In this document: piece by piece, positions 3,814 through 25,188 of the stretch
Layout: every line of letters begins with the position of its first letter
Numbering within the stretch: position 1 is the stretch's first letter
Assembly (NCBI GenBank): GCA_018671575.1
Contig: JABHHM010000496.1
Span: forward strand, 1-33,011
Direction: 5' to 3'
Length of the DNA: 33,011 nt
From: Methylococcales bacterium
Lineage (GTDB): Bacteria > Pseudomonadota > Gammaproteobacteria > JABHGC01
Made by a program: the position numbers and the translations under genes
The notes under the pieces: generated by a model
Database searches by the model: none
What the model saw: only the letters and a program-made list of their open reading frames with translations
What the model was told of the DNA's origin: nothing

Positions 3814-4206
3814 TTAACGTTTCGAATATTGAGGTCTTTTTCTAGATTTGTGTAGACCCACTTTTTTACGTTCAACAGATCTTGCATCTCGAGTAACATA
3901 GCCAGCACTTCTTAATGACTCTCGCAATGTTTCGTCATATTCCATTAAAGCTCTAGTGATGCCGAGGCGAATTGCACCTGCTTGTCCAGTTGTGCCGCCA
4001 CCGGTGACAGTTATGTTAATGTCAAACTTGTCAGTAACCTCTGCACATTCCAAAGGTTGTCTTACGACCATTCTGGCGGTCTCTCTTCCAAAATATTCGT
4101 CTAGAGGCTGCTTATTGACAGTGATAGCCCCTGTTCCTGATTTAATAAAAACTCTAGCAGCAGAGCTTTTACGTCTGCCAGTGCCATAATATTGTGTGTC
4201 TGCCAT
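3814..4206 (-). CDS. rpsI: 30S ribosomal protein S9
   Basis: [17 protein letters not shown]... ending [16 protein letters not shown]. Confidence 0.98.
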
Positions 4207-4220
4207 AATGTTGCCTATTT

Positions 4221-4649
4221 CTAAATGTCTAATACTTGTGGTTGTTGTGCTTCATGCTGATGATTTGGACCAGCATAAACTTTTAGTTTTTGGAACATTG
4301 CTCTGCCCAATGGGTTTTTTGGTAACATACCTTTCACGGCATGTTGAATAATTCTTTCGGGAGATTTGGCCAATAACTTATCGAATGGTATTTCCTTCAT
4401 GTTGCCAATGTAACCTGTGTGATGATAATAAATTTTATCAGTTCTTTTGCGACCTGTTACATGAATCTTTTCAGCATTGACTACTATAATATAGTCACCT
4501 GTATCCATATGAGGTGTATATTGAGCTTTATGTTTTCCTCGTAATCGATGAGCTATTTCAGTTGCTAAACGTCCTAATGTTTTGCCGTCAGCATCAACTA
4601 ATAGCCAGCTTCTTTTGATGTCTGAGGGTTTTGCGGTATAGGTTTTCAT
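4221..4649 (-). CDS. rplM: 50S ribosomal protein L13 (start at [18 protein letters not shown] just upstream)
   Basis: [33 protein letters not shown]...; directly upstream of rpsI. Confidence 0.97.
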
Positions 4650-4922
4650 CCTATATTTCTCCAAATAAATCCAGATTTATGTTCAGTCAAGAATTGCATT
4701 GTTTGTGGGGCAACTCTAAATATATGTTACCTTATAAATATTCTTCATTTATAAAGAAAGGAATGCTACATAACTATTGGAAAATACTCAAGAATTACTT
4801 GTGTTTTTTACAAAAAAAATAAAAATGTAAAAAAATATAGACTTTTTCGGATAATCACCATCAAAATTAGGTTTTTCCCTAATAGTATTTAATTTGTAAT
4901 TGATTTATCTTACGTTTCAAGA

Positions 4923-4955
4923 AGTAAAAAAAAGGCGTAACTAAGAAGTTACGCC
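4923..4955 (-). terminator. intrinsic terminator
   Basis: 9-bp stem GGCGTAACT/AGTTACGCC, tetraloop, then a T-run on the minus strand. Confidence 0.85.
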
Positions 4956-5016
4956 AAAACCACCAAAGGAGGATGGAGGTATTCATCCTGATTCACACTA
5001 CCATGTGAATCGCAAT
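4924..5016 (-). ncRNA. candidate small RNA with anti-Shine-Dalgarno motifs
   Basis: Minus-strand promoter TTGACA-N17-GATAAT (5051..5023); hairpin GAUUCACA-UGGUAG-UGUGAAUC; hairpin GGAUG-AAUACCUC-CAUCC; linker UCCUCCUUUGGUGG; terminator GGCGUAACU-UCUU-AGUUACGCC followed by 8 U. Confidence 0.72.
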
Positions 5017-5022
5017 ATCGTT

Positions 5023-5051
5023 ATTATCTAATATTAATAAAAAACTGTCAA
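5023..5051 (-). promoter_or_regulatory. sigma70-type promoter for the sRNA candidate
   Basis: RC contains TTGACA (5051-5046), 17-nt spacer, GATAAT (5028-5023). Confidence 0.75.
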
Positions 5052-5222: not shown

Positions 5223-7898
5223 TTAGATTCGAGTCTTAATTGTCATAGACTGCATCTTTTTGGCGTAATAAGTCATCAAATTAATTTTTCTGTCTTTATT
5301 TAAAAAACTATTAAGATTGTATTTGAGTTCACTGGATAGTGATTCTTTAAATAGTGTATAAAAAAGTTGATTAAGTGATACTAAATCTTCTGGAATATTC
5401 TCAAAAAATGCTTCTAGCTGAGTCCGTAACGCATGTTTTTTAGTGTGGGATAAAATTTCAAGTGCATTGCCCAAGTCTTTTTTGTTGCTTGATAACAGGC
5501 CTCTTTGGAGTCTTTTCCAAAATTCCTGATTTTTATTGGATATTTGACTAATCATGATTAAGGTAATCGTGATATTTTCTTTTTGATTTTCTAGTAAACA
5601 AGTATTTATTTGTTGTTTTTCATCAATAGTTATTGCGTCACAGTCTTTCAGTACCAAATATAGACTATAAAGTTGCATCCATTGTTTCATGCATTGGATG
5701 GTGAAATATTGTAATTGCTGTTTTTCAGAAGAGTTTAAGTGCGAATATAATAAACGTGTTAATTCGTGTCGGATAATCTCGTTAATTTGGTTTGTTATTA
5801 ATAATTGAAATAATTTGTCGCGATAAAAAGCTAGGTGTATTCTTATTAAATCAATTGTGGCATGCATTACATCGCTTGAGTTATCGTTCAGCAGGAGAGT
5901 TATTTTTTCAAAATCTTCGGTGGGGCGACAATTTGACAGTGCTTGAGTTGCTAACAGTCGTTCATTTTCTATTGCGCTTCCTGACATTGTTATTAGTTCA
6001 TTGATAAAGAAGTCCAGATTATTTTCATGTATTTTTAGGTAAACTTTAGTTGATTCAAGTCTTAAATGAATATTGTCACTGTTCATATGGTCTTTGATAA
6101 ATTGAATATTAGACTGGCAATTAAGTGGAATAAAAATACTTAGCAATAGTTTCTGTTGAGCGGGTGTGGACTGTTTTAACCTATTTAAATAGAGCTGCTG
6201 AATTTTTTCTTTATTTTCAAAAAAATCATTTCGGTATAAGCACAGGCAGGCCTGTGAAAAAACACCTGCCCATGGGTGCAATAAGAAACGTTCAATTGAA
6301 CTGCCTAATTTTTCTTGATGAAATGAAGACAGTGTTTTTAAAATCATCTCAATGACATCAGGTTTTTGTTCGAATTTTAACGCTTTAATTAAATAGGTTA
6401 AGGCGGCATTGGATTGTTTTATTAGTGACAGTGTTTTTGCTGCTTGTTTTTTAACTTCAAAATGATCTGACTGGATGAGCAGTATGCCTGTATCATGTAA
6501 ATACTGTTGTTTGGGGTTGGTTTGAATCATTTTTAAAGCAATGATTTGTTGTGTAGGATTATTGCTTTTAATATATCGTTTAATGGTTTTTTCAGGTGAT
6601 TCAGATTCGTTATCGTTATGCTGTTTTAACTGGTTGAAAACGCCTATTCTATAGGCTTTTCCCTGATAATGTGAGCATAAAATACCCGTCATCGAGGTGA
6701 TTAAAATAAAAATGGGTAAAATAGTGCTTAGTTCATCAATTTTAAAATGTTCTTGTAATACGATAATCAAGGTTGCTGCAATCATGGTTGATAAAGGGTA
6801 TACCAATCCATTTAACCAGGACTTACTGATTGCCCAGTGTTTTTCTGGAATGGCGCTGAATAATAAATTATGAGAGGGGGTTCGGATGATGTTGCGCATT
6901 TCCTGGTTAATAAAGTGTGCCAATATACCTGAAATAAAGCCGAATCCTATACACAAAATGCCTGAAATCAGAGTTGTCAAACCAGGGTATATGGAATTAC
7001 TGGTAGCAACACCTAATTTAGATAGGATTTTGCCAGTGAATGCCAGTTGTAATACCAGTGCCAGTAAATTAGCAACTAATTCGTACTGACCTAAAAATAT
7101 GGCCCTATCTCTTGAATCAGTAAAGTGTTCAGGATAAATGATGCCTTGATATAAGTATTCTAAAATACGACTGGTAATGACAAATAAGATGAGGCTAATT
7201 GTCATCCAAATAATGATTTTGCTTTTTGATAATATTTTTAATTGTTGTAATGTTCTTTCGATCATTGATTGTTGTGATGAGTGTTGATTTAATTCTTCAG
7301 GCATTGGGCTGATTTGTTGGTTGAGATGGATCAGCAGTAAGCTCATTAAAATGCCAAAAAAGGGAATGATTAAAATAATTAATTCAGCTTTAATGAAGTT
7401 ACCCGCCAGAACTACGATTGCACCTCCCAATGCGCCACCAATGGGTACGCTGGCATAAATAACAGAAATTAGTCGTTTTAGTTGGCTGGTATGAAAGTAA
7501 GTTGCAACAAAACTGCTCAAATGAATAAAGATTAAAATGTAGAAAAAATGAAAGCAACAAAAAAATAGGGCGGATAAATTGTCAATAATGCCATTCATTA
7601 AAATACCGATAATGGCTATTACTAAAATATTTCCAGTCAATAAAACTTTTAACAATTGTAATGAGAATATTCGAGACGATAGCGTGGCGTAGATGAATGT
7701 TCCAAACATTACGCAAATATCAACAGCAACAAACATCTTTGGCAACAATTTTTCACCATAGTTATCAATTAGCAAGGTCATTGCCGTGCTTCTACCTATG
7801 GCACCGCTAATGGCAAAAAATAAAATCAATAAAAATAATAAGACTACGGTTTGCCATTCACTTTTATTAATGCCAAAAATTCGTTGTATTAAGTGCAT
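5223..7898 (-). CDS. polytopic MFS / NTT (ATP:ADP antiporter)-like membrane protein with long C-terminal HEAT-like helical repeat region
   Basis: About 12 hydrophobic segments in the first ~410 aa (MHLIQRIFGINKSEWQTVVLLFLLILFF...), then repetitive helical soluble region (QQIIALKMIQTNPKQQYLHDTGILLIQSDHFEVKKQAAKTL...). Confidence 0.65.
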   Translation of the reverse strand: MHLIQRIFGINKSEWQTVVLLFLLILFFAISGAIGRSTAMTLLIDNYGEKLLPKMFVAVDICVMFGTFIYATLSSRIFSLQLLKVLLTGNILVIAIIGILMNGIIDNLSALFFCCFHFFYILIFIHLSSFVATYFHTSQLKRLISVIYASVPIGGALGGAIVVLAGNFIKAELIILIIPFFGILMSLLLIHLNQQISPMPEELNQHSSQQSMIERTLQQLKILSKSKIIIWMTISLILFVITSRILEYLYQGIIYPEHFTDSRDRAIFLGQYELVANLLALVLQLAFTGKILSKLGVATSNSIYPGLTTLISGILCIGFGFISGILAHFINQEMRNIIRTPSHNLLFSAIPEKHWAISKSWLNGLVYPLSTMIAATLIIVLQEHFKIDELSTILPIFILITSMTGILCSHYQGKAYRIGVFNQLKQHNDNESESPEKTIKRYIKSNNPTQQIIALKMIQTNPKQQYLHDTGILLIQSDHFEVKKQAAKTLSLIKQSNAALTYLIKALKFEQKPDVIEMILKTLSSFHQEKLGSSIERFLLHPWAGVFSQACLCLYRNDFFENKEKIQQLYLNRLKQSTPAQQKLLLSIFIPLNCQSNIQFIKDHMNSDNIHLRLESTKVYLKIHENNLDFFINELITMSGSAIENERLLATQALSNCRPTEDFEKITLLLNDNSSDVMHATIDLIRIHLAFYRDKLFQLLITNQINEIIRHELTRLLYSHLNSSEKQQLQYFTIQCMKQWMQLYSLYLVLKDCDAITIDEKQQINTCLLENQKENITITLIMISQISNKNQEFWKRLQRGLLSSNKKDLGNALEILSHTKKHALRTQLEAFFENIPEDLVSLNQLFYTLFKESLSSELKYNLNSFLNKDRKINLMTYYAKKMQSMTIKTRI

Positions 7899-20120: not shown

Positions 20121-21020
20121 CTATTTTTTAGCAATTATAGATAATTTCTCAGGAGTGATGACTTGGCCATTTAATCCTGATTCTTTATAGTTTTTGCCAT
20201 AAGCAACACTCATTAACTGACTGTAGTAAACTACGGGCATTTTAAATTTGGTGTTGTATTTTTTGTTGATATGGTTTTGATAAACTTCAACATTCATTTG
20301 GCAAACAGGGCATGGTGTAGCAATCATATCTGCACCACCATCATAGGCTGCTTCAATGATGTCTTTAATCATGGCTTGGCTTTTTTCAGGTTCTGAGAAT
20401 GCCAATGCGCCGCCGCAACATTGTACTTTTTTCTCATACTTTTCAATGGGTTCTGCTCCCATTGTTTCAACCAGTTTGTCCAAATATTTTGGGTTTTCAA
20501 AAGATTCACCGTCAATACCAAAAGGTCGATTAGTTTGGCAGCCAACATAACCCGCTATTTTAATACCATCTAATGGTTTTTTGACATGTTTGCCGAGTTC
20601 ATCATAACCAAAGTCTTCAATCAAGACCTCAACCATGTGACGTACTTTTTGATCTGCCTTAACATTGAGACCCGCAGCAGAAAGAGCCTGGTTGGTTTCT
20701 TCCATTAAGCCATCATCTTCATGTAGGCGTTCTTTAGTCTCTTTGGTTGCTAACCAACAAGCAGCACAAGTTGCAACGACATCTTGACCTGGGTTTGCTT
20801 GTTCAGAGAGGGCAAGATTTCTAGCGCTCAAAGCTATTCTGGGTAATTCTCCACCGCCAGCATAGCCAATAGAAGCGCTACAGCAATTCCAGTCTGGAAT
20901 GGTATTGAGTTGGATATCAAGTTCATTACACATTGAATCAACAGATACTTGATAATTAGAAGAAGATGCAGCTTTTTGTGAAGAGCATCCTGGATAAAAT
21001 GAGTATTCTTTTTTTGCCAT
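20121..21020 (-). CDS. hdrB: HdrB-like CCG-domain subunit of Qmo/Hdr complex
   Basis: YPGCSSQKAA...WNCCSA and GYVGCQTNRP...VQCCGGAL (two CCG domains). Confidence 0.93.
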   Translation of the reverse strand: MAKKEYSFYPGCSSQKAASSSNYQVSVDSMCNELDIQLNTIPDWNCCSASIGYAGGGELPRIALSARNLALSEQANPGQDVVATCAACWLATKETKERLHEDDGLMEETNQALSAAGLNVKADQKVRHMVEVLIEDFGYDELGKHVKKPLDGIKIAGYVGCQTNRPFGIDGESFENPKYLDKLVETMGAEPIEKYEKKVQCCGGALAFSEPEKSQAMIKDIIEAAYDGGADMIATPCPVCQMNVEVYQNHINKKYNTKFKMPVVYYSQLMSVAYGKNYKESGLNGQVITPEKLSIIAKK

Positions 21021-21031
21021 CTTAAGTTACC

Positions 21032-21658
21032 TTATGCTCCGTGTTTAGCAATCTTTGCATCTTCGAGTTCTTTGGCTTTTTGCAACATAGCGTGAAAACC
21101 AGTTTTGTCTTTAATGCTGTGTCCGCCTAGTAGTTCAAATGGGCTCATTCGGCCAGTTTTAAGCATGTTCAAACCAACATCCTGCATTTTTAGAGACATT
21201 TTTATGCCTTCACCAAAACCGTTCATAAAATACAGTTTTAGACCAAGTTTGAGTTCATTAACGCGTCCTGTATTGGTTAAATTATCCCAAAATAATTGAG
21301 CAAATTTTTCTGTTTGCTGGTTTTCAGGGACTAAACCCAATCGTTTTGCATAATGAGCTAATCCATGCATGATATGTGTGATTGGTAATTCCCTTGGGCA
21401 TCTAACAATACAGTTATAACAGGAAGTACACATCCACATAGAGCTTGAGGTTAAAACTTCTTCGCGTTTGCCTGCTCGAATCATCATGAAAAGTTCTTGC
21501 GGAGGATGATCCCAGTGAGGGCCAAGAGGACATGATCCTGAGCATACGCCACATTGCATACACATTTTAACCCATTCACCTTCTTCTACATTAGCTTCTA
21601 CTTCATGTAAAAAGCTATTTCTATATTTTTCAATCATTGTAGTATTTAAGTTACCCAT
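21032..21658 (-). CDS. hdrC: HdrC-like 4Fe-4S subunit
   Basis: CMQCGVCSGSCPLGPHW and CTSCYNCIVRCPRELP. Confidence 0.93.
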   Translation of the reverse strand: MGNLNTTMIEKYRNSFLHEVEANVEEGEWVKMCMQCGVCSGSCPLGPHWDHPPQELFMMIRAGKREEVLTSSSMWMCTSCYNCIVRCPRELPITHIMHGLAHYAKRLGLVPENQQTEKFAQLFWDNLTNTGRVNELKLGLKLYFMNGFGEGIKMSLKMQDVGLNMLKTGRMSPFELLGGHSIKDKTGFHAMLQKAKELEDAKIAKHGA

Positions 21659-21666
21659 GACTGCTC

Positions 21667-23898
21667 CTAAAATTTTAATGGGCTAGTACCAATATCTTCG
21701 ATAGTCTTTGCCATGTCATCAATTAATTGAGGAATACGTTGAATATCTGTGATTGCTACTTCATAAGTTGCAACACGTTCTTTTTCAAGATTTAGTGTCG
21801 TCAGCGTATCATTGACTTTGCTCATTCTGTAATGTGCAATTTCCGATCCTTTAACAAAATGGCATTGGTAGTTTTCACCTTTTTGGCAACCTAAGAGTAC
21901 GACGCCGTCATAACCGCTGTTGAGTGCGTCTGTTACCCATATGGTATTAACAGAACCTAGGCATCGAACAGGAATAATGCGGACATATGCGCTGTGTTGT
22001 ATTCGATTCATGCCAGCCATGTCTAATGCGGGATAAGCATCATTTTCACAAGCCAGTGTCAATATTCTTGGCTTAGCGACTGCATTTTCGTCATCTTCAT
22101 CAGGTATGGGAACATTGACAGCTTTTATTTGTTGTCCAACGGAATCTACTGAATAATTTTCAAAGGATATGACTCGAACAGGGCAAGCACCCATACATGT
22201 TCCGCATCTTCTGCAACGACTTTCATTGTATGATGGATAGCCTTTTTCGTCTTCATTGATTGCACCAAAAGGACATTCCACCGTGCAACGTTTGCATTGT
22301 GTGCAACCTTCCATTCTGAATGATGGGAAACTTAAGTCTCCAGATCTTGGATGAGCTGCTTTGCCTAAGGCTGAGTTTTCAATGGCTTGAATGGCTTTCA
22401 TTGCGGCGCCAGTTGCATCATCAATAGCTTGATTAATGTCCATTGGGCGACGAACGGGTCCAGCAGTATATATGCCTGTTCTTCTGGTTTCATAAGGAAA
22501 ACAGATGAAGTGTGAATCGGTAAAGCCATGAACCAGTTGAGGCATGTCTTTGCCTTGTCTGTAGTCCAAGTTTAAAATAGATTCGACTGGAATTTCGACG
22601 GATCCTTCTTCAGCAGGTGGTGCATCAATATTAACACCTGAATTGGGTAACATTCCAGTTGCAAGAACCACCATGTCTACAGCAAGATCAACTTCATCAT
22701 TTAAGATTAGGTCAGTAAATTTAATGGTGTGTTGGTTGTCGCCAGCAACAACTTCTTTTGCAATGCCTTTAGTAAATGTAACACCTTTTCTTTGTGCACT
22801 TCGGTAAAAGTCTTCACCGCCAGCACCAGGCGTTCTAAGGTCGGTATACAGTACAGCTGCATCACAATTAGGATTGCTTTCTTTAAAATACATGGCTTGT
22901 TTAATGCTGGTGGAGCAACAATGTCCTGAACAATATGATAGGTGATCTTCTTTGTCACTTCTTTGTCCAGCACACTGAATAAACATTACATTTTCAACCA
23001 CTTTGCCGTCTGATGGTCGTTTAATGGGCGTTCCATTGGCTTCTTGAGCTAATTTTTCTAAGCCTAATTGATCGACAACATCAGGTGTTTTCCCATAAGC
23101 AAATTCAGGTAGTTTGTTAGCGTCATATGGAGTGAAGCCACTGGCTTGAATAATGGCACCAAAATTTTCAGTGGTTGTCGAGCCACTTTCTGTTGTAATG
23201 TCTACAGAAAATCGACCAGGTGCACCTGATGTTTTGGTTGTTGTAGAATTGAGATAAACCGTGATATTTGAGTTAGCACTGATTTGATTGTTTAAGTCAT
23301 CAATGCCATTGTCCTGAGGTGAGGCGTAAGGCATTCTGCTAGGTACTTTACGATGTAGTTGACCCGCAACACCGCCTAGTTGACTTGTTTTCTCAATAAT
23401 AGAAACTTGATAGCCTGCTTTAGAGGCTTCTATGGCAGATGTCATGCCTGTGATACCACCACCAACAACCAGTAAGTGTTTATTGACAGATTGTTCCTGA
23501 CTGGCAGAAGGGGGTGACATAAATTTTACTTCAGTACAGCCCATTCTTATGTAGTCTTCAGCCATTTCTTGGGTTGCTTCTTTGGCTTCTTCTGTATCAG
23601 GTCTAACCCAAATAACACCTTCTCTAAGGTTGACTCTCGAAACACAAGTAGACTCAAAATTAAAAGCCTCAAATTTAGCTCGTCTTGAGCAAGCTCCGAT
23701 GACAACTCGATTAATACCCTCGTTATCAATATCAGCTTGTATTTTGTCTACAGTACTTTGCTGACATAAGAATTCTTCTTGTCTACAAATGGCTGCTTTG
23801 CCTTCTCCTGATGCGATACTTTCAAGTTTATCTGTATCTAATCTTTCACCAAGACCACAACCTTTACAGATATACGCGCCTATTTTTGTATCTGCCAT
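21667..23898 (-). CDS. qmoB: QmoB: HdrA-like flavoprotein with ferredoxin and MvhD-like domains
   Basis: LLVVGGGITGMTSAIEASKAG; CTQCKRCTVECPFGAI; CRRCGTCMGACPVRVI; C-terminal VVLLGCQKGENYQCHFVKG. Confidence 0.94.
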   Translation of the reverse strand: MADTKIGAYICKGCGLGERLDTDKLESIASGEGKAAICRQEEFLCQQSTVDKIQADIDNEGINRVVIGACSRRAKFEAFNFESTCVSRVNLREGVIWVRPDTEEAKEATQEMAEDYIRMGCTEVKFMSPPSASQEQSVNKHLLVVGGGITGMTSAIEASKAGYQVSIIEKTSQLGGVAGQLHRKVPSRMPYASPQDNGIDDLNNQISANSNITVYLNSTTTKTSGAPGRFSVDITTESGSTTTENFGAIIQASGFTPYDANKLPEFAYGKTPDVVDQLGLEKLAQEANGTPIKRPSDGKVVENVMFIQCAGQRSDKEDHLSYCSGHCCSTSIKQAMYFKESNPNCDAAVLYTDLRTPGAGGEDFYRSAQRKGVTFTKGIAKEVVAGDNQHTIKFTDLILNDEVDLAVDMVVLATGMLPNSGVNIDAPPAEEGSVEIPVESILNLDYRQGKDMPQLVHGFTDSHFICFPYETRRTGIYTAGPVRRPMDINQAIDDATGAAMKAIQAIENSALGKAAHPRSGDLSFPSFRMEGCTQCKRCTVECPFGAINEDEKGYPSYNESRCRRCGTCMGACPVRVISFENYSVDSVGQQIKAVNVPIPDEDDENAVAKPRILTLACENDAYPALDMAGMNRIQHSAYVRIIPVRCLGSVNTIWVTDALNSGYDGVVLLGCQKGENYQCHFVKGSEIAHYRMSKVNDTLTTLNLEKERVATYEVAITDIQRIPQLIDDMAKTIEDIGTSPLKF

Positions 23899-23901
23899 GG
23901 T

Positions 23902-25188
23902 TTAAACCTCCGTTTTAGAAAAGCGATTAACAACTTGAATCGCTCTTAAAGCACTGGCTGTTGCGTTTTGTACAGCTCTGTTAACATCTAATGCATCTGA
24001 AGCACAACCAGCAGCAAACATTCCTGTAGAACCTTCTGGTCTTTCAATGAAGCCATGTTCATTGGTAATAACTTCCACTGGGAATTTTTCACGATCAACA
24101 CTGGGTTGCATGCCGACAGCTAAGACAACTAAGTCATGAGCATTGTCATAGCGATCATAACCTTCTGTATTAACACCGTGAAGGACTGGATTGCCTGTAC
24201 CTCGTTCTTCAGTAATGCTGGCTACTTTTGATTTGATGAAAGAAACATTTGTATCCGCTTGAACTTTGGCATAAAAATCTTCAAAACGATCAATAGCTCT
24301 AATATCAATGTAGTAGATTGTCGCTTTACCATCATCTGCATATTGTTCTCTAACGTAGGTGGTTTGTTTGAGAGAGGCCATGCAACAAATACGAGAGCAG
24401 TGTTTTAGATAATTTCTATCACGAGAACCTGCGCATTGTATGAAAGCAATGTTTTTGGCTTCTTTGTTATCAGATGGTCGTAGTATTTTTCCACCTGTTG
24501 GACCAAAATCATCCATCATTCTTTCAAATTCTACGCTGGTAATAACATTGTCATAACGGTCGTAACCATAAGGCTGGATATTTGCTGCATCAAATGGTTG
24601 CCATCCTGTTGCCCAGATAACTGCACCAACATTAAGTTGTACAGTCTCTTTTTGCATGTCTAAATCAACAGCGTCATAGCGGCAAGCGGCTTTTGCTTTG
24701 TCGGCATCATCAGTTCCGATAATGCCAGAGTCCAGTACATAGCGTTGAGGATAGGCCATATTAAAAGGCAGGTATGCGCCTTTACGCTTATCCATATTGT
24801 AGTTATGTTCATTGTCGAATTTGGCTTCAACGGCATTGGCACATTCACCACAAGCTGTGCAGTTGTCATTGATATAACGGGGTTGCTTTGTGATGCTGAC
24901 GTTATAGTTGCCTGCATTGCCAGTGATTTCATCAACTTCTGCCATGGTGATGACGCGCAAGTTTTTATTGGCTTTAATTCTTCTGGAGTTTATTTCCATG
25001 CCACAGGTTGGATGGCATAGTTTTGGAAAGTATTTATAAAGTTGACTGACTCTTCCACCCAAAGATGGGGTTTTTTCAACTAAAATTACTTGTTTGCCAC
25101 ATTCAGCTGCTTCAAGTGCTGCAGTCATGCCACTAATGCCACCACCGATGACCAGAATGCTTTCATTTGTTGCAATGGTATCCGTCAT
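23902..25188 (-). CDS. qmoA: QmoA: HdrA-like flavoprotein
   Basis: ILVIGGGISGMTAALEAAECGKQVILVEKTPSLGGRVSQLYKYFPKLCHPTCGMEIN; RBS GGAGGAAAGCAATG. Confidence 0.94.
   Translation of the reverse strand: MTDTIATNESILVIGGGISGMTAALEAAECGKQVILVEKTPSLGGRVSQLYKYFPKLCHPTCGMEINSRRIKANKNLRVITMAEVDEITGNAGNYNVSITKQPRYINDNCTACGECANAVEAKFDNEHNYNMDKRKGAYLPFNMAYPQRYVLDSGIIGTDDADKAKAACRYDAVDLDMQKETVQLNVGAVIWATGWQPFDAANIQPYGYDRYDNVITSVEFERMMDDFGPTGGKILRPSDNKEAKNIAFIQCAGSRDRNYLKHCSRICCMASLKQTTYVREQYADDGKATIYYIDIRAIDRFEDFYAKVQADTNVSFIKSKVASITEERGTGNPVLHGVNTEGYDRYDNAHDLVVLAVGMQPSVDREKFPVEVITNEHGFIERPEGSTGMFAAGCASDALDVNRAVQNATASALRAIQVVNRFSKTEV

Follow-up and report, generated by a model that had tools for sequence, protein, structure and literature searches.

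The window, i.e., the whole analysed stretch of 33,011 nt from a Methylococcales bacterium, carries on its minus strand a complete non-coding transcription unit that runs from position 5051 to position 4926 (Table 1). The earlier note on this DNA described an autonomous unit with TTGACA, a 17-nt spacer and GATAAT, and all of these elements are present. The promoter has 11 of 12 consensus matches and ranks first among 16 promoter-like sites within 3 kb. The ribosomal protein gene rplM had been named as a flanking gene. It is indeed adjacent, and it is more than a neighbour: it lies downstream of the small RNA (sRNA) on the same strand. The MFS/HEAT gene is outside the sRNA unit.

Table 1. Features of the sRNA locus (positions refer to the window)
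Feature	Position	Strand	Basis
-35 element TTGACA	5046..5051	-	perfect hexamer common in the family
-10 element GATAAT, within family motif ATATTAGATAAT	5023..5028	-	sequence and family consensus
Predicted sRNA transcript, ~91 nt	4926..5016	-	start predicted 7 nt past the -10 element
5' hairpin 1, GAUUCACA-UGGUAG-UGUGAAUC (DNA GATTCACA-TGGTAG-TGTGAATC)	4990..5011	-	sequence and fold
Conserved core UACCUCCAUCCUCCUUUGGUGG, two anti-SD sites (ACCUCC and UCCUCCUUU)	4960..4981	-	near-invariant in 52- and 57-sequence alignments
Weak hairpin with loop UCCUCCUU (4973-4966)	4979-4960	-	matches the family consensus
Terminator hairpin GGCGUAACU-UCUU-AGUUACGCC, 9 bp, loop of 4	4934..4955	-	sequence and family covariation
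Terminator U-run, 8 T/U	4926..4933	-	sequence
rplM (L13), directly downstream of the sRNA	4221..4652	-	Pfam PF00572, E 5.9e-49
rpsI (S9), second gene downstream	3814..4206	-	Pfam PF00380, E 1.4e-48
Upstream gene (891 aa) with an MFS-like membrane portion and HEAT repeats	5223..7898	-	Pfam MFS_1 E 5.4e-5, HEAT_2 E 2.4e-4, both under curated cut-offs

The first hairpin is present as previously drawn, and across the family its structure is kept while its sequence varies. The strong terminator with eight U was also described correctly. The second hairpin fared differently. The sequence GGATG-AATACCTC-CATCC is present at 4988-4971 of the minus strand, yet only two of 133 family loci offer CAUCC a 5-nt partner upstream, and we rejected this hairpin as a family feature. 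Nor is UCCUCCUUU a free linker, as had been suggested: it overlaps the 3' arm of that same hairpin (TCCTCCTTT occupies 4973-4965 of the minus strand). In the family consensus CC-U-CCA pairs with UGG-U-GG around the loop UCCUCCUU, with CCAUC/GGUGG as an alternative register. The loop is nearly invariant and other stems drift. The core is an almost perfect anti-Shine-Dalgarno (anti-SD) sequence. Its pairing is near-invariant in the gammaproteobacterial (gamma) branch, so covariation has no power there. In the betaproteobacterial (beta) branch the equivalent UCCACC/GGUGGA stem varies with the pairing kept (CUACCC/GGGUGG, UCCAAC-/-GUUUGGA).

The conservation in relatives that the earlier note proposed to look for was found. 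A BLAST comparison of 131 bases of the window covered 93 genomes, almost all of them single representatives of their families. In more than 20 of them the core recurs as CTCCATCCTCCTTTGGTGG or in a closely similar form, with a GC-rich terminator behind it and unrelated sequence around. A pattern scan of genome contigs located the segment TACCUCCAUCCUCCUUUGGUGG with a terminator in at least 118 other DNA stretches. In 134 distinct loci a TATATTAGAAAAT-like box is conserved, and a perfect TTGACA is correctly placed in 87 of them, compared with 1.0 in shuffled upstream sequence; the consensus is TTGACA-N17-hexamer preceded by TATATTA (n = 78). The part between the start and the core is divergent in sequence yet folds stably as a hairpin, with a mean z of -4.3 against mononucleotide shuffles over 94 loci (97% below -1). 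Compensatory changes are seen in all eight pairs of the terminator stem in family alignment A1. A covariance model built from the core and the terminator, R1, matches the window at 4929-4983 with 68.1 bits (E 5.3e-14) and finds a single copy of the sRNA in the window's genome assembly.

The simplest alternative is a chance arrangement of a terminator and a CU-rich sequence beside a promoter-like match. In its favour, the AT-rich window contains many promoter-like matches (16 vs 12.3 expected). The whole RNA, however, folds with -33.5 kcal/mol, whereas dinucleotide shuffles give -16.8 (z -5.75), and not one of 200 shuffles reached its stability; its terminator covaries, and the whole unit is conserved in more than 100 loci. 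Because of this conservation we regard the chance explanation as refuted, and the RNA unit as established. The claim of an autonomous sRNA with anti-SD sites is strongly supported by the class-wide conservation of the promoter, the 5' hairpin, the CU-rich core and the terminator.

A palindrome, TTAGGGTTTTCCCTAA, precedes the sRNA -35 element by about 20 nt in five loci from Thiodiazotropha-type and Ctena-symbiont genomes (L057, L088, L108, L126, L133), compared with 0.09 expected. By its sequence it looks like a transcription-factor operator. An imperfect palindrome resembling it, ATTAGGGAAAAACCTAAT on the minus strand, lies at 4860-4885 of the window between the sRNA terminator and rplM.

The position next to rplM raises the question of a cis-acting leader or attenuator of the rplM-rpsI operon, in which conditional readthrough of the terminator would set the synthesis of ribosomal proteins. 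Among the 134 loci, 62 are directly upstream of rplM, all on its strand and mostly with 135-600 nt between the core and the rplM start. Besides, the top promoter-like site between the terminator and rplM in the window has only 9 of 12 matches and a -10 element without the final T. A leader should always precede rplM, and the other loci do not fit this: 32 occupy the queA-tgt interval in opposite orientation to the two genes (e.g., L118, L123, L108), 31 have the same core in different surroundings, seven have no downstream sequence, and two have rplM farther off. The spacing to rplM is not conserved either, and consensus folds contain no alternative antiterminator pairing. Three genomes carry one rplM copy plus one queA-tgt copy, and such second copies within one genome argue for action in trans. 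Tandem copies at a single locus (L103) and the trans activity of family relatives (PMC11722255) also speak against a leader. We therefore consider a leader unlikely. An antisense effect of the queA-tgt copies on that operon is possible. The tandem array at L103, which belongs to a Thiotrichaceae genome, comprises three copies of the sRNA core at 5785-6024, and in genome G283 three R1 matches lie within about 280 nt.

The Rfam search proposed in the earlier note gave no family for the sRNA: at gathering threshold only a tRNA is reported in the window. The top-scoring model below threshold is that of Listeria SbrA (RF01489; 36.2 bits, cut-off 45), an RNA from another phylum whose score stems from the CU-rich stretch and the terminator. 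SbrA, SorY, RprA and NmsRb were all rejected as the identity of the sRNA, as their scores are under the cut-off and indicate resemblance only. Neisseria NmsRA/NmsRB are alike in being short sRNAs with a pair of anti-SD motifs separated by about 11 nt (PMC5362039), but they are tandem siblings with TCA-cycle targets and RelA control, and the NmsRb model RF02877 scores the window weakly (23.3 bits). CU-rich anti-SD loops are also shared by alphaproteobacterial SmelA075/SmelA099 (CCUCCUCCC loops, PMC3927594) and SorY (24.8 bits for its covariance model against the window). These RNAs differ in architecture and copy pattern, and the likeness may not reflect homology. A SorY-like RNA with UCUCCAUCCUCCCUGUUGGA and a terminator is present at L159 1500-1553, in a genome of the same phylum outside the class (G406; R1 E 1.3e-4); by its sequence it points to a possible wider superfamily.

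The closest relationship is with RF02278, the family of Burkholderia ncS03/ncS05/ncS27/ncS62 and bdhR1. Its model scores the window at 29.2 bits, under the gathering cut-off of 50, which none of 18 tested gamma loci reached. Nevertheless, the anatomy is shared: a single-stranded CUCCUCC site (ACCUCC in the window), a second CU-rich site in a loop closed by CCACC/GGUGG-type pairing, and a terminator immediately 3'. The gamma branch differs by its shorter loop (UCCUCCUU), its near-invariant core and its sub-cut-off score, and nearly all of the 94 gamma loci have an extra stable 5' hairpin, unlike a double-hairpin RNA of two hairpins only. R1 recovers sequences whose RF02278 score exceeds the cut-off of that model (L157), and an RF02278 search in relatives of genome G108 found loci with a core almost identical to that of the window (CUCCUCCACCCUCCUCCUUUGGUGG).

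The position is shared as well. Three beta-type loci (L161, L162, L163) and a sub-cut-off one (L182), attributed to Betaproteobacteria by inference from the RF02278 matches, precede rplM-rpsI by 84-188 nt in the same orientation, just as the 62 gamma loci lie upstream of rplM. Many other loci from the RF02278 search sit downstream of coq7, which is a neighbour in loci of both branches and adjoins S17 in Bordetella pertussis (PMC11722255). Burkholderia ncS27 lies within the BCAL3348a/BCAL3349 interval (PMC4603805), and BCAL3348 is given as a gene for a ribosomal protein (PMC5688073). S17 also resembles the gamma RNA: its processed form has a conserved 5' part with two anti-SD sites, followed by a terminator. 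RNase E releases S17S from a 190-nt precursor (PMC11722255), whereas the predicted start of the gamma RNA is mostly about 30-50 nt before the core, so processing would not be needed. Because of the shared position and anatomy, we regard the two branches as orthologous. We assign a probability of about 0.8 to the reading that the window sRNA is the gammaproteobacterial ortholog of the RF02278/double-hairpin/S17 family and acts in trans by blocking ribosome-binding sites (RBS).

The trans-acting, RBS-masking role suggested earlier gains support from this orthology, as such action was tested in trans for RF02278/S17 (PMC11722255, PMC5688073). S17 depends on Hfq; its loss raises 92 genes, of which 70 match its Sites 1/2 at or near the RBS, and one target was shown directly by a translational fusion (PMC11722255). 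Overexpression of ncS27 attenuates growth and respiration, and silencing has the opposite effect (PMC5688073). NmsR represses TCA enzymes directly (PMC5362039). S17S is non-toxic in exponential growth (PMC11722255), which makes growth inhibition in E. coli unreliable as a criterion for RF02278. By analogy with the Bordetella and Burkholderia experiments, the window sRNA is most likely an Hfq-assisted trans-acting RNA that represses many mRNAs via SD pairing. We infer that a sigma-70 type housekeeping promoter yields a transcript of about 90 nt ending at its own terminator. The 5' hairpin, probably for stability, would precede the two adjacent CU-rich sites, which in trans, and probably with Hfq, would pair with GGAGG-type RBS of many mRNAs. 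Such pairing would block translation initiation and lead to a broad, growth-linked tuning of metabolism and transport. The window's genome encodes hfq, and the terminator end of the sRNA is U-rich.

The window contains qmoA/qmoB-like genes (FAD and FlpD domains, 20121-25188) with strong SD sequences, adjoining further operon genes. The four qmo-cluster genes are the top four of the 22 window genes by core-RBS duplex energy. The proposal of qmoA as a special target was nevertheless rejected, since duplex energies of the window genes do not stand out from those of random sequence (mean -9.3, 5% point -15.3). Sulfur genes are not enriched as targets among 177 genes from stretches of the same genome (p = 0.15). 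In that set dsrC, with ACCAAAGAGG in its 5' region, ranks 7th; we rejected it because complementarity beyond the SD was found in none of the relatives with a placeable start. Thus, no conserved specific target was found among window genes, the 177 own-genome genes and dsrC relatives, as expected of an RNA that reads general SD sequences. The same result would suit a sponge or decoy whose CU-rich core mainly titrates a protein or pairs with G-rich RNA and masks no RBS, as would the 22 nt of near-invariant core, more than an anti-SD needs. We consider a sponge very unlikely, given that the anti-SD is the most constrained part and that action at the RBS was shown for an ortholog (PMC11722255).

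The sRNA is concentrated in sulfur-oxidizing bacteria. The named organisms among the matches listed for the at least 118 stretches are nearly all sulfur-oxidizing Gammaproteobacteria: Thiocapsa, Chromatium, Allochromatium, Thiohalocapsa, Halochromatium, Thioalkalivibrio, Thiothrix, Beggiatoa, Thiomargarita, Sedimenticola, Thiodiazotropha, and symbionts of Lucinoma, Ctena and Escarpia. R1 matches occur in 124 of 320 sampled genomes of the class (~39%; 29% at E < 1e-7), some weak ones being beta-type RNAs, and in five of 200 genomes of a phylum-wide sample. R1 is present in 107 of 143 genomes with dsrA or soxB vs 17 of 177 without either (81 and 13, respectively, at E < 1e-7 only). Per taxonomic family, with the total of 173 families taken from genome label numbers, 66 have both the RNA and a marker, seven the RNA only, 13 a marker only and 87 neither. 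The p-values of this phyletic link are tiny, but the statistics ignore kinship; sulfur oxidizers cluster in related lineages, and common ancestry may account for a large part of the association.

Toxic sRNAs (RF02278) were described as exclusive to Betaproteobacteria (PMC7011215), and we found no description of the family in Gammaproteobacteria in the open-access literature, a search with the core sequence included. New here are the extended membership of RF02278, the old rplM locus, the wide occurrence in Gammaproteobacteria and the link to sulfur oxidizers. As a tentative and somewhat doubtful extension, the class-wide anti-SD sRNA of gammaproteobacterial sulfur oxidizers might be a global translation brake tied to chemolithotrophic or energy-limited growth, ancestral to both branches at coq7/rplM and duplicated into queA-tgt.

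A family supposed to be betaproteobacterial is thus old and widely distributed, and it has a conserved position in front of a ribosomal protein operon. The gamma branch has no Rfam entry and is therefore missed by annotation pipelines. Sulfur oxidizers, symbionts and giant filaments included, gain a likely global post-transcriptional regulator that is unnamed there in the searched open-access literature, and its conserved core eases tests of targets and phenotypes in culturable Allochromatium, Thiocapsa and Thioalkalivibrio.
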